The notes beneath the pieces are model-generated. The model searched no databases. It saw nothing but the letters and a program-made list of their open reading frames with translations, and was not told the DNA's origin. From positions 1,759,501 through 1,823,500 of the forward strand of contig NZ_CP011797.1 in assembly GCF_002795845.1 (NCBI RefSeq): a DNA stretch of 64,000 nucleotides. Reading direction: 5' to 3'. Below are positions 50,376 to 58,442 of this stretch, one piece after another. How positions within the stretch are numbered: the first letter of the stretch is position 1; every line of letters starts with the position of its first letter. Position numbers and translations under genes: made by a program. This stretch comes from Reinekea forsetii (lineage in GTDB: Bacteria; Pseudomonadota; Gammaproteobacteria; Pseudomonadales; Natronospirillaceae).

Positions 50376-52037
50376 ATGTACGTTTACGACTCGTATGACC
50401 AACAAATCGTTGATCAACGCGTTGCGCAGTTCCGAGAACAGACGGAGCGCTTCCTGACTGGTGATTTAAAACCCGAAGAATTTCTGCCGCTGCGCCTGCA
50501 AAATGGTCTCTATGTGCAGCGTCATGCGCCGATGCTGCGCATCGCCGTACCCTATGGTTTGATGTCCGCTCGCCAGTTGCGCACCATTGCTGATGTCAGT
50601 CGGCAATTCGATAAGGGTTATGTCCATTTCACCACCCGGCAGAACATTCAATTGAATTGGCCGGCGCTGGAAGATGTACCCGATATCTTGGCCGAATTGG
50701 CCGCTGTGCAAATGCATGCGATACAAACGTCGGGTAACTGTATCCGTAACACCACCACGGACCAATTTGCTGGGGTTATGCCCGATGAGGTCGAAGATCC
50801 ACGTCCCTGGTGTGAAATTATCCGCCAATGGTCGACCTTACACCCAGAATTTGCCTATTTACCGCGCAAATTTAAAATTGCCGTCAATGCAGCCACCACG
50901 ACCGACAGGGCCGCGATCCGCTTCCACGATATAGGCCTGCAGTTGGTTAAAAATGCCGATGGCGTCGTGGGTTTTCAGGTATTCGTGGGCGGCGGACTTG
51001 GGCGTACGCCCCTTCCTGGGCAAGAAATACGCGCCTTTTTGCCCAAGGAAGACCTGCTGACCTACTTGGAAGCAATTCTACGGGTATACAACCTGAACGG
51101 TCGTCGAGACAATAAATACAAGGCTCGAATTAAGATTTTAGTTAAGGCCCTCGGCATCGACGCTTTTAAGGCTATGGTCGAAGAGCAGTGGCAGGTCAAT
51201 AAGGGTGGCGCCGCGACGCTAACCGATGCTGAAATTGATCGAGTCGGGCAATTCTTTACCGATCCGAACTATGCTGCCCTAACCGATCAAAGCGACCTGC
51301 TAGGGCAGCAGCGCTTTGCCCACGACGGTTTTAACAAGTGGTTGAGCTATAATGTCGAGGCGCACAAGCAACCCGGCTACGCCGCGGTAACCTTGGCACT
51401 GAAAAAGACCGGATATGCCCCTGGCGATGCGACCGCGGAACAATTAGACGTGGTGGCGGACTTGGCCGATCAGTACTCCTTTGGCGAGCTACGAGTGAGT
51501 CACCAACAAAACCTTATCCTCGCCGACGTCAAACAAGCTGACCTACTGATTCTCTGGCAACGACTCGATCAACTGGGCTTTGCCGATCCGACGGTTGGCA
51601 CCCTAAATGATGTAATTTGCTGCCCTGGGGGTGACTTCTGCGCCCTGGCCAATGCCAAGTCGATCCCCATAGCCGAGGCGATCCAGTTACAGTTTGATGA
51701 TCTGGACTATCTCCACGACCTGGGCAATATCGATCTGAATATATCCGGTTGTATGAACGCTTGTGGCCATCACCATATCGGCCATATCGGTATCTTAGGG
51801 GTCGACAAAAAGGGCGAGGAATTTTATCAAGTCTCACTGGGCGGGGATAGCGGCATCGATGGTCGAGTTGGCAAGATATTGGGGCCTTCAGTTAAGGCCG
51901 ACCATATTACCGAGGTCGTGCAGCAGGTGATAGATGTCTTCTTAGCCCAACGTCAGCCGCAAGAACCCTTTATCGACGTGGTTCAGCGCATCGGGCTAAC
52001 ACCTTTTAAGGAGGCTGTTTATGCACCATCTCATTAA
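50376..52037 (+). CDS. cysI: Sulfite reductase hemoprotein (CysI-type nitrite/sulfite reductase)
   Basis: 553 residues. It reduces sulfite to sulfide using siroheme coupled to a 4Fe-4S cluster. Cluster ligands are the Cys in CCPGGDFCALA (about 414-421) and GCMNACGHHHIG (about 458). N-terminal ferrodoxin-like half-domains contain HFTTRQNIQLNW and TSGNCIRNTT. No flavoprotein cysJ is adjacent, so electrons may come from ferredoxin or another reductase, as thought for Pseudomonas. GAGGG precedes the ATG. It overlaps the DUF934 gene by 17 bases. Confidence 0.93.
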   Translation: MYVYDSYDQQIVDQRVAQFREQTERFLTGDLKPEEFLPLRLQNGLYVQRHAPMLRIAVPYGLMSARQLRTIADVSRQFDKGYVHFTTRQNIQLNWPALEDVPDILAELAAVQMHAIQTSGNCIRNTTTDQFAGVMPDEVEDPRPWCEIIRQWSTLHPEFAYLPRKFKIAVNAATTTDRAAIRFHDIGLQLVKNADGVVGFQVFVGGGLGRTPLPGQEIRAFLPKEDLLTYLEAILRVYNLNGRRDNKYKARIKILVKALGIDAFKAMVEEQWQVNKGGAATLTDAEIDRVGQFFTDPNYAALTDQSDLLGQQRFAHDGFNKWLSYNVEAHKQPGYAAVTLALKKTGYAPGDATAEQLDVVADLADQYSFGELRVSHQQNLILADVKQADLLILWQRLDQLGFADPTVGTLNDVICCPGGDFCALANAKSIPIAEAIQLQFDDLDYLHDLGNIDLNISGCMNACGHHHIGHIGILGVDKKGEEFYQVSLGGDSGIDGRVGKILGPSVKADHITEVVQQVIDVFLAQRQPQEPFIDVVQRIGLTPFKEAVYAPSH

Positions 52038-52509
52038 GGACGGGGTACGGATCGCTCATGACCCTTGGCAAATACTTGCAGGCGATTACAGTGCTAACCT
52101 GCCCAACGGATCGCTCCTGCCGGTTTCATTGTGGACCGAACGGGGGCCTGAGCTTTGCCAAGCAACGGCCGAACTGGGGGTTTATATTCGGGAAAATGAA
52201 GACCTAAGCGGTCTAATAGACTATTTGCCAACGATTGCCGTGGTCGCTTTTCAGTTCGGTAAGGTCGCCGATGGCCGTGCCTTCAGTTACGCCCGTCAAC
52301 TGCGCGAGCAGTTTGGTTATAGCGGTGAAATACGTGCTACCGGAGACTTTATGCCCGACCAAGTCGGCTATTTAGAGCGCTGTGGCTTTAATGCCTTTGC
52401 TTGCCGAAGTGCCGCAGAGCAACAGACAGCCTTGTTAATACGAGCCGCCCTGCCCGTCAATTATCAGGCCGATGTGCAACAAAGCCAACCGCTCTTTCGA
52501 CGTCGCTAA
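52021..52509 (+). CDS. DUF934 family protein, CysI partner
   Basis: 162 residues. It overlaps the 3' end of cysI by 17 bases and has its own strong AAGGAGG site inside cysI, so translation is coupled. VVAFQFGKVADGRAFSYARQ and DFMPDQVGYLERCGFNAFAC are hallmarks of DUF934, which is almost always found beside sulfite reductase hemoproteins. A supporting role in sulfite reduction is likely but undefined. An intrinsic terminator follows. Confidence 0.88.
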   Translation: MHHLIKDGVRIAHDPWQILAGDYSANLPNGSLLPVSLWTERGPELCQATAELGVYIRENEDLSGLIDYLPTIAVVAFQFGKVADGRAFSYARQLREQFGYSGEIRATGDFMPDQVGYLERCGFNAFACRSAAEQQTALLIRAALPVNYQADVQQSQPLFRRR

Positions 52510-52525
52510 GCGGCGGCCAATAAAG

Positions 52526-52550
52526 AGAGCCGTAACGGGCTCTTTTTTTT
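52526..52550 (+). terminator. Intrinsic terminator after cysI-DUF934
   Basis: Six-bp stem AGAGCC/GGCTCT (52526-52531, 52538-52543), loop GTAACG, with eight T (52543-52550). The last two T form the start of the -35 element of the next promoter. Confidence 0.9.
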
Positions 52551-52577
52551 GACTTCCCACTGAAAGCTGTATATAAA
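52549..52577 (+). promoter_or_regulatory. Sigma-70 promoter of the SulA-like gene
   Basis: TTGACT (52549-52554), 17-base spacer, TATAAA (52572-52577). The -10 element lies inside the first LexA box, so bound LexA would block RNA polymerase. Confidence 0.75.
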
Positions 52578-52601
52578 TACAGGTACTGGAATTTCATACA
52601 G
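52567..52601 (+). promoter_or_regulatory. Tandem LexA boxes (SOS operator)
   Basis: Box 1 CTGTATATAAATACAG (52567-52582) is a perfect CTGT-N8-ACAG match with an AT-rich centre. Box 2 CTGGAATTTCATACAG (52586-52601) differs at one conserved position. They start 19 bases apart, about two helical turns, and end 13 bases before the SulA-like ATG. Confidence 0.88.
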
Positions 52602-52614
52602 TATAGAGGTCGAT

Positions 52615-53073
52615 ATGATAGCCGCTCAGCAACATGCCCAGCTTAACCAACACTTTTTGCTCTCCATGGGCAAAAAAGCCAGATCCTTTGTGGAGTTCCA
52701 TGCCTATGACTCCCCATTACTGAATCAATGGCACCATCTGATTGCATCGATGCGCGCCAACGCTAATAAGCGTCAATGGGTTACCCTAATCAATCCACCC
52801 TTCATTCCCAATGATCAGTATCTGAATGAAATTGGGCTCGGGGACTATTATGTTCGGATCATCCGCTTGGCCCAAAACAGTGAGGCCACAACTCGATATA
52901 TCCAACGTTGCGTGCAAAATGGCAAAAGCTCGATCGTGGCGGTGTGGTCAAACAGCGTTGATGAGCTGCCCGAGGTGTTATTAAATGAGTCGCCCCTAGG
53001 CTGCCAAGCCTTGGTGTTTTCGGCCGGCAACCAGGCACAATTCCGGGATCAACAGCTGGAAATAGCTTTTTAA
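52615..53073 (+). CDS. sulA: SulA-like SOS cell division inhibitor
   Basis: 152 residues. The central part LLNQWHHLIASMRANANKRQ, WVTLINPPFIPNDQYLNEIG and RYIQRCVQNGKSSIVAVWSN aligns by eye with SulA's RecA-like core (E. coli [21 protein letters not shown] and VRALRTGNYSVVIGW). SulA binds FtsZ and stops septation during DNA damage, then is degraded by Lon. Tandem LexA boxes upstream support SOS control, and lon is in this window. It stands alone rather than next to lexA as in Pseudomonas. Confidence 0.82.
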   Translation: MIAAQQHAQLNQHFLLSMGKKARSFVEFHAYDSPLLNQWHHLIASMRANANKRQWVTLINPPFIPNDQYLNEIGLGDYYVRIIRLAQNSEATTRYIQRCVQNGKSSIVAVWSNSVDELPEVLLNESPLGCQALVFSAGNQAQFRDQQLEIAF

Positions 53074-54600: not shown

Positions 54601-54687
54601 TGGTGCGGGTGGCCGGACTTGAACCGGCACGACTGTTAAGTCGCAAGATTTTAAGTCTTGTGTGTCTACCGATTCCACCACACCCGC
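54601..54687 (-). tRNA. tRNA-Leu (anticodon TAA)
   Basis: 87 bases with the long variable arm of class II tRNAs, acceptor GCGGGTG/CACCCGC, anticodon stem CAAGA with loop CTTAAAA, and encoded CCA. Last gene of the Gly-Cys-Leu operon. Confidence 0.95.
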
Positions 54688-54826
54688 AAAAGACTTAGAC
54701 GTCGCCGTCTGACTACTCCTTTTACCACGGAGTCAGTGGTCATGCGTCGGCAAACTGGTTGCAATAACAACAGACCAGGAAATGACGATTAAAAATTCTG
54801 AGACTCATTTAAACCCTGAGAAAGGG

Positions 54827-54900
54827 TGGAGGCGCGGGTCGGAATCGAACCGGCGTACGCGGAGTTGCAGTCCGCTACATGACCACTCTGCCACCGCGCC
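54827..54900 (-). tRNA. tRNA-Cys (anticodon GCA)
   Basis: 74 bases with acceptor GGCGCGG/CCGCGCC, anticodon loop CTGCAAC, and encoded CCA. Second gene of the operon. Confidence 0.95.
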
Positions 54901-55037
54901 AAACTTGCATATTTTAACCAGTGTGCCGCTGGTCAGTCCTTAGAGTATGAAGCAATGCCAATCGAGCCGACAATTACTAACTGGTGTTACAAACCAAGTT
55001 ACTTCTTACTGGTAGAACCGAAGATCTAGCGGATTTT

Positions 55038-55112
55038 TGGAGCGGGAAAGGAGATTCGAACTCCCGACCCCAACCTTGGCAAGGTTGTGCTCTACCACTG
55101 AGCTATTCCCGC
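55038..55112 (-). tRNA. tRNA-Gly (anticodon GCC)
   Basis: 75 bases with acceptor GCGGGAA/TTCCCGC, anticodon loop TTGCCAA, and encoded CCA. First gene of the Gly-Cys-Leu operon, the same order as E. coli glyW-cysT-leuZ beside pgsA. Confidence 0.95.
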
Positions 55113-57721: not shown

Positions 57722-58366
57722 TTAGACCATTTCTTGAGGCTCCAGTAATCCATAGCGAATGGCTAGATGCGTGAGTTCCACGTCGCTGGTTACCGATAAT
57801 TTTTCAAATACTCGATACCGATAAGTGTTCACGGTCTTGGGACTCAAACAGAGGGTGTCGGATATTGCCTGCACCTTTTTACACGAACAGATCATGGTCG
57901 CAATCTGCATTTCACGATCGGACAGATCATTAAAGGGATTATCCGAGACGCCGAGGCTCTGTAAGGCCAATTTTTGTGCGATGGTCGGCGTTAAATATTT
58001 CTTGCCCGCCATAACCGTTTTAATCGCCTGGATCATTTCGTCTGTCGAGGCACCCTTAGTTAGGTAGCCGGACGCGCCGGCCTGCAACAGGCGGGCGGGA
58101 AATGGGTCATCATCGCAAGCCGTGACGGCAATGATTTTAATTTCCGGAAACAGGCGTTGAATTTTTTTCGTCGCCTCGATGCCATCCATGCCGGGCATGC
58201 GGACATCCATCAGAATGACATCCGGCTCATACTCCTTGGCCAGGTCAACCGCGCGTTGGCCGCTATTGCCGTCGGCCACAACGCGAATGCCGGCGACATC
58301 GGCTAAGAGGCGTACCAGACCAAAACGAACCAAATCATGATCATCTATTACTATGATTTCAACCAT
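57722..58366 (-). CDS. gacA: Response regulator GacA/UvrY
   Basis: 214 residues from MVEIIVIDDHDLVRFG, with AGAGGG upstream; an in-frame ATG eight codons earlier is an alternative. Receiver domain with phospho-acceptor Asp54 in ILMDVRMPG and Lys in GYLTKGAS; C-terminal LuxR-type HTH (DLSDREMQIATMICSCKKVQ, LSPKTVNTYRYRVFEKL). Paired with sensor GacS/BarA (not in this window), it activates small RNAs that sequester CsrA. Position next to uvrC is conserved. Confidence 0.95.
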   Translation of the reverse strand: MVEIIVIDDHDLVRFGLVRLLADVAGIRVVADGNSGQRAVDLAKEYEPDVILMDVRMPGMDGIEATKKIQRLFPEIKIIAVTACDDDPFPARLLQAGASGYLTKGASTDEMIQAIKTVMAGKKYLTPTIAQKLALQSLGVSDNPFNDLSDREMQIATMICSCKKVQAISDTLCLSPKTVNTYRYRVFEKLSVTSDVELTHLAIRYGLLEPQEMV

Positions 58367-58442
58367 GACGGTGCCCTCTTGGTAAGCCAAAGCATCATAC
58401 TTCGGGCTAGTTTGTTAGGAAAGCTCTTTTCGGTCGCTAACA

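Follow-up and report, generated by a model that had tools for sequence, protein, structure and literature searches.

A putative SOS promoter-operator and a stand-alone SulA/ImuA-family protein with a clamp-motif-like C-terminal end in Reinekea forsetii

The window, a stretch of 64,000 nucleotides of Reinekea forsetii (NZ_CP011797.1, positions 1,759,501 to 1,823,500 of the forward strand), belongs to a genome of 3.66 Mb assembled as one contig. The features of the locus studied here are listed in Table 1. A gene for a small SulA/ImuA-family protein was found downstream of cysI and a DUF934 gene, behind the terminator of that pair and a promoter of its own with two LexA boxes. No imuB or polymerase gene was found beside it, and the next gene was an FAD oxidoreductase gene on the opposite strand. 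Genes of this kind, joined neither to lexA nor to imuB, are called stand-alone below. Genes for tRNA-Leu, tRNA-Cys and tRNA-Gly were located at 54601-55112 of the window, between the FAD oxidoreductase gene and pgsA; the short ORFs called across these tRNA genes are probably not real.

Table 1. Features of the locus (window positions).
Feature	Position	Strand	Remarks
cysI (sulphite/nitrite reductase), upstream neighbour	50376..52037	+	Pfam NIR_SIR
DUF934 gene, upstream neighbour	52021..52509	+	Pfam PF06073
Intrinsic terminator of cysI-DUF934	52522..52550	+	10-pair stem plus T tail
-35 element TTGACT	52549..52554	+	Read from sequence
LexA box 1 CTGTATATAAATACAG	52567..52582	+	Perfect core; covers the -10 element; conserved
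-10 element TATAAA	52572..52577	+	Inside box 1; read from sequence
LexA box 2 CTGGAATTTCATACAG	52586..52601	+	One mismatch; 19 bp after box 1 (start to start)
152-aa SulA/ImuA-family protein, stand-alone clade	52615..53073	+	ORF, profile, model, tree
RecA/SulA-fold core, residues 24-138	52684..53028	+	VIA-align Z 10.8 to 1OFU chain X, 10.4 to 1OFT
C-terminal tail, residues 141-152, predicted disordered	53035..53070	+	pLDDT <50
Hexapeptide QLEIAF, beta-clamp-binding-like motif	53053..53070	+	Conserved at the very end

The terminator stem spanned 52522-52547 and the T run 52543-52550, and the first two T residues of the TTGACT element were shared with the terminator tail, as described in the initial annotation. 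The spacer between TTGACT and TATAAA was 17 nt, which by sequence makes a good promoter; the promoter scan missed it because the scan requires a T at position 6 of the -10 element. Box 1 was the sole perfect CTGT-N8-ACAG within the window. With transcription inferred to start at about 52584, box 1 would lie over the -10 element and box 2 over the first transcribed bases. The same annotation had reported a doubled LexA operator with its first box on the -10 element and the second beginning 19 bases later, and both statements agreed with our reading and measurement. The spacing corresponds to about 1.8 helical turns, not to the two turns it had given. Its further suggestion of cooperative and tight control found no support here; for the E. 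coli lexA double operator, no detectable interdimer cooperativity was reported (excerpts of PMC7440846).

A count of perfect CTGT-N8-ACAG cores in the genome gave 52, versus 25 for the reversed control pattern. A lone perfect core is therefore unremarkable, and a single box was set aside as weak evidence. Four of the 52 cores shared one sequence (G000:C1:458353, 2574405, 3435524 and 3458912); one of these copies (L011) looks like 23S rRNA, which we take to be a source of false positives in LexA-box scans. The tandem pattern (at most one mismatch) was found at 27 places in the 22 genomes of the family and at none with the reversed control. By coordinates, the 27 pairs lay at 12 stand-alone genes, 10 lexA genes, two imuA genes and three other places (G007:C101:1500, G008:C1:3262370 and G009:C9:18048).

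Seventeen stand-alone genes were compared: 14 in the family of the window, among which the proteins of G002 and G003 were identical, and three in family f37 (G172, G231 and G093). Comparison of the boxes in relatives, which had been proposed as a check, showed that all 17 genes, the window's included, carried a pair of boxes at a 19-bp spacing, in which 14 to 16 of the 16 core bases matched. The refuting outcome named in the initial annotation, a conserved gene that had lost its boxes, was thus not seen. The spacing was constant while the inner bases of the boxes varied. The 14 family proteins were only 17-60% identical to the window protein, yet the operator pair was kept. When the upstream regions were shuffled in two-base blocks, 0 of 1020 shuffles scored 14 or higher. 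A chance origin of the pair was ruled out because the 19-bp pair was present in 17/17 genes and no shuffle scored as high.

The promoter elements were less uniform. The distance from the start of TTGAC to box 1 was 18 bp in 14 of the 17 genes and 17 bp in one, and TATAAA stood at the matching place in 12 of 17 as scored. At one locus (L133) a 28-bp pair tied with the 19-bp pair (score 14); its -35 element, -10 element and T run are absent from the counts because the script chose the 28-bp pair. Fusion of the terminator with the -35 element (T run of at least 7) was observed in 4/7 Reinekea genes and in 0/9 other genes measured, and is a local trait.

In this genome, matching boxes also preceded lexA, imuA, a dinB-like gene and a further gene that we take to be recA, which makes it very probable that the cell uses a LexA with this specificity. 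The palindrome overlaps the promoter and was conserved in 17/17 stand-alone genes; the SOS control first proposed for the window's gene was borne out to this extent, and LexA control is very likely from the sequence. At the lexA loci of the 22 family genomes, the two boxes were 19 bp apart in 13 and 18 bp apart in five, and a pair at 18-19 bp was absent in four. The 19-bp geometry also occurred at imuA in three genomes, and box 2 of imuA in G012 was identical to box 2 of the stand-alone gene in G019. In other families of the order, imuA-type genes had two LexA-like boxes at 17-18 bp (L158-L163, L188, L192 and L193); the imuA genes of the order may therefore often have their boxes in pairs.

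The gene had also been described as not linked to lexA. This held in the sense of an operon and failed in the sense of position: the two genes are on one strand with 17 kb between them, and in the 13 Reinekea and Saccharospirillum genomes they shared contig and strand and were roughly 13-38 kb apart. The flanks of lexA, searched to at most about 1.5 kb on each side, contained no SulA/ImuA gene at any of the 22 family loci. Direct linkage in a Pseudomonas-type lexA-sulA operon was rejected for the window, since its distant lexA had no adjoining SulA gene.

For the window protein, no Pfam match was obtained up to E 0.1 (PF03846 SulA included), and TIGR00623 (SulA) gave no match up to E 0.01. The NCBIfam scores were 34.0 bits for ImuA (NF033429) and 22.6 bits for SulA (NF041583), with a cut-off of 150 for both, and ImuA was the best curated family in three of the four stand-alone proteins scanned. 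A PDB search with the window protein alone found P. aeruginosa SulA at E 0.098, behind an unrelated chain, while the profile of the 14 stand-alone proteins matched two SulA chains at E 1.3e-11 and 2.7e-11. The search for related loci returned none with the single protein and eight named loci with the stand-alone alignment.

AlphaFold models had a mean pLDDT of 67.7 for the window protein and 77.3 for a Saccharospirillum protein. SulA was the best structural match of both models (Foldseek E 2.6e-4 and 1.7e-11, respectively), including P. aeruginosa SulA in its FtsZ complex (1OFU), and RecA came next, as expected for this fold. According to its model, the window protein has the SulA fold, and a putative division inhibition is plausible. 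The original label of SulA-like was thus apt for the fold; it was not apt for the curated scores, in which SulA stood far under its cut-off and below ImuA, nor for five Saccharospirillum orthologues, which grouped with ImuA. The curated scores and the operon context fit neither family, so the protein should be filed neither as SulA nor as ImuA. It is a new variant inside the SulA/ImuA superfamily.

A tree of 86 rows showed the lexA-linked SulAs as one group (100/99) and ImuA as a third group (82/77), with the stand-alone clade on one side of a branch (97/69), outside both. Constraining the stand-alone proteins to group with the ImuAs of G011, G012 and G021 cost 0.33 log units (p-AU 0.487). A reduced tree was built after the first tree was seen, with 14 of the 86 rows, long branches among them, dropped. 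Because 12 of these rows were stand-alone proteins (seven of Reinekea, G009, G019 and three of f37; the other two were ImuAs with poor domain limits), the reduced tree speaks only for the five Saccharospirillum rows, which formed one clade (95/96) with the ImuAs of G011, G012 and G021. Joining the Saccharospirillum set to lexA-linked SulA cost 7.7 units and was not rejected (p-AU 0.204).

The identity of a Saccharospirillum protein was 46% over 124 aa to the G011 ImuA versus 32% to a lexA-linked SulA, and the highly diverged Reinekea rows scored about equally with the ImuA and SulA profiles. On balance, descent of the stand-alone clade from an ImuA is likely, although the full set of rows gave it no firm placement. 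Protein lengths were 250-251 aa in the ImuA of sister genera, 174-195 aa in Saccharospirillum and 148-164 aa in Reinekea. The family shows apparent intermediates: two genera have a full-length ImuA in the vicinity of cysI-DUF934, and Saccharospirillum and Reinekea have the short forms.

The gene was present in 7/7 Reinekea genomes, its own included. In the family, 17 of the 22 genomes had a match (14 short stand-alone genes and three full-length ImuAs) and five had none. Ten genomes of f37 had one match each; in three it was a stand-alone gene only, and in seven a lexA-linked SulA only. This complementary occurrence in f37, together with the 0/22 lexA-linked genes in the family, suggests that the stand-alone gene replaces the lexA-linked SulA and hence shares an SOS role with it, in a pattern with few lineages behind it.

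The pair cysI-DUF934 directly preceded the stand-alone gene in 11 genomes and lay about 1.3 kb before it in G002 and G003, with other genes between; cysI was not beside the gene in G009 and the three f37 genomes. In G011, G012 and G021, imuA lay about 2.7-4.3 kb from cysI-DUF934, with other genes between DUF934 and imuA and different wider surroundings. These imuA genes had a tandem operator of like build. Behind them lay imuB and dnaE2, recognised from their frames in G011 and G012, with dnaE2 of G021 confirmed by Pfam. Among the f37 genomes (L252/L253 loci), the stand-alone gene of G093 lay about 6 kb from uvrC-pgsA, and that of G231 lay about 6 kb from a relative of the window's uvrC-adjoining gene at 57725-58414; these positions hint at an old shared location.

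Elsewhere in its genome, R. forsetii has an imuA and also a second gene of DnaE type. At G000:C1:2539300-2549000 (L172, L256), a LexA-boxed imuA was followed by a 531-aa frame and then by recQ. The frame had no Pfam or NCBIfam match, and its last residues resembled those of the imuB-like frames in G011 and G012. The second DnaE-type gene was found further on, past recQ and behind two opposite-strand frames, and this mutasome cluster is apparently interrupted by recQ.

The C-terminal end was examined in the same proteins. The pattern Q-x-x-[LMIF]-x-[FLIV] formed the end of 17/17 stand-alone proteins, the f37 members having been found with a profile that already held tail columns and so favoured tail-bearing matches. 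The stricter form Q-[LMI]-x-[LMIF]-x-[FLIV] fitted 16/17, and G009 fitted the loose form only. Examples were QLEIAF (window), QLEMEF, QLALAL, QLSLAF and QLQLAL, and the linker ahead of the motif varied in length and sequence. Matches to the family were present in 171 of 293 genomes; from those listed, 40 loci, mostly picked for short frames, were compared and gave three stand-alone, 28 lexA-linked and nine ImuA-type proteins. At the very end, the motif was found in 0/28 lexA-linked SulAs and in 0/41 ImuAs (one of which, L166, was cut by a contig end), and it was rejected as a general trait of SulA or ImuA. The 28 lexA-linked SulAs (L135-L157, L164, L165 and L167-L169) ended at most six residues from the last aligned profile position and had no tail. 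A similar stretch occurred within the last 75 residues of 9/41 ImuAs, and QLDLGF-type stretches were found near the C-terminus of ImuA in G011, G012 and G021. As background, the motif was found in 3 of 176 frames of at least 200 aa, a set that includes non-coding frames and overlapping regions, and all three were stand-alone genes.

The tail of the Saccharospirillum model was likewise of low confidence and without secondary structure. The last strands ended at residue 136 in the window protein and 156 in the Saccharospirillum protein, so the tail is unlikely to be the last beta-strand of the fold. Two Y-family polymerases of the window's genome bear recognisable motifs, QLTLW in the DinB-like and QFDLF in the UmuC-like protein; DnaE had no match to the pattern used. 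The clamp motif also occurs in a QLxLxL form. Its consensus is QL[S/D]LF, Pol IV carries QLVLGL at its C-terminus and Pol II carries QLGLF, and the Pol III clamp peptide reads Gln, Val, Glu, Leu, an inserted Glu and Phe (excerpts of PMC3716654). The window tail resembles these peptides in its Gln and hydrophobic residues, in its C-terminal position, which is usual among them, and in lying in a flexible region, as judged against the loosened pattern set in this analysis. The carriers named in those excerpts are DNA polymerases, whereas the window protein belongs to the SulA/ImuA family. The open-licence literature, in the parts consulted, described neither a clamp motif within a SulA/ImuA-family protein itself nor a sulA gene under a doubled operator. 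From the pattern and its position, the QLxLxF-type motif probably serves to dock the tail on the sliding clamp.

We favour, with a probability of about 0.5, the reading that the locus is an SOS promoter-operator and that it controls an ImuA-derived, clamp-docking SOS checkpoint protein. LexA dimers on the two boxes, at the -10 element and the transcript start, would hold the gene off, and RecA-triggered cleavage of LexA would turn on the sigma-70 promoter, whose first bases are also the last of the preceding terminator. The small protein made from the gene would share the inactive-RecA fold with SulA and ImuA. Its clade would have arisen from an ImuA that lost its link to imuB-dnaE2 and was then shortened. 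As a checkpoint factor of the SOS response, the core would stand in for the lexA-linked SulA, which is absent from these genomes, and the disordered tail would dock on the sliding clamp.

A doubtful though possible alternative is an ordinary, diverged SulA that binds FtsZ and blocks division, with the tail as a Lon or Clp degradation tag. The best structural match, FtsZ complex included, is P. aeruginosa SulA (PA3008; 1OFT, 1OFU; NF041583), which is alike in RecA-like fold, size and SOS context, and the occurrence complementary to lexA-linked SulA would also fit; unlike that protein, the window gene stands outside the lexA operon and has its own tandem operator and a C-terminal tail with the motif. 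A ClpYQ degron near the SulA C-terminus has been published (excerpts of PMC10743992). E. coli SulA (b0958; TIGR00623) is likewise stand-alone: its gene has a LexA box of its own close to the start, and the protein ends in a tail. However, E. coli sulA has one perfect box and no second box of at least seven core matches upstream, and its tail has another end, without the terminal Q-x-x-hydrophobic-x-hydrophobic of the window protein. That tail serves Lon degradation, so the window tail could be a degron. Against such a SulA stand the preference for ImuA as the curated family in 3/4 stand-alone proteins and the absence of the terminal pattern from 28/28 lexA-linked SulAs. The invariant Gln at the sixth position from the C-terminus and the alternating hydrophobic residues are not explained by any tail degron known to us.

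Equally tentative is a small ImuA confined to DNA repair, which would help to bring translesion polymerases or RecA to the clamp, or to regulate them there, and would have no role in division. The affinity to ImuA in family score, tree and identity favours it, as do the QLDLGF-type stretches noted above and the binding of ImuA' to ImuB in mycobacteria (PMC11791113, in excerpt), which has been modelled more widely (PMC6511836, in excerpt). ImuA of the sister genera, the best curated match (NF033429), also shares the operator build and the cysI-DUF934 vicinity. However, imuA and a second gene of DnaE type are already present at another place in the genome, and the stand-alone gene has no adjoining imuB, dnaE2 or other polymerase gene. 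The window protein is about 100 residues shorter than the sister-genus ImuA and bears the motif at the very end. As for the operator, it is improbable that repression comes from box 1 alone and that a doubled site does nothing more. In the window, box 2 is the weaker of the two, and the double operator of lexA in E. coli behaved as a matched single operator did (excerpts of PMC7440846), but the pair and its 19-bp spacing were kept in 17/17 genes while the inner bases vary. The E. coli lexA operator likewise has two boxes, one overlapping promoter elements (same excerpts), and differs in that a like build here serves a second gene besides lexA. The window boxes are 19 bp apart, and those of the E. 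coli lexA double operator are about 21 bp apart.

SulA and ImuA are inactive relatives of RecA, of which SulA stops division and ImuA helps mutagenesis. How one gave rise to the other is unsettled in the excerpts of the literature that we met, and the apparent intermediates of this family bear on that question. The role of operator doubling was called unclear in the E. coli work (excerpts of PMC7440846), and a fixed 19-bp double operator at lexA and one target gene is a natural test of it. On a broader and rather speculative reading, which we hold less probable than the preferred one, a SulA-fold protein derived from the mutasome subunit ImuA replaces SulA and is tethered to the clamp, so that division arrest or a replisome checkpoint would be coupled to the replication machinery under a lexA-like operator. 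Since the operator copies the lexA geometry, lexA and the checkpoint gene would on that reading switch together. If the tail binds the clamp, the protein would connect the SOS checkpoint directly with the replisome.
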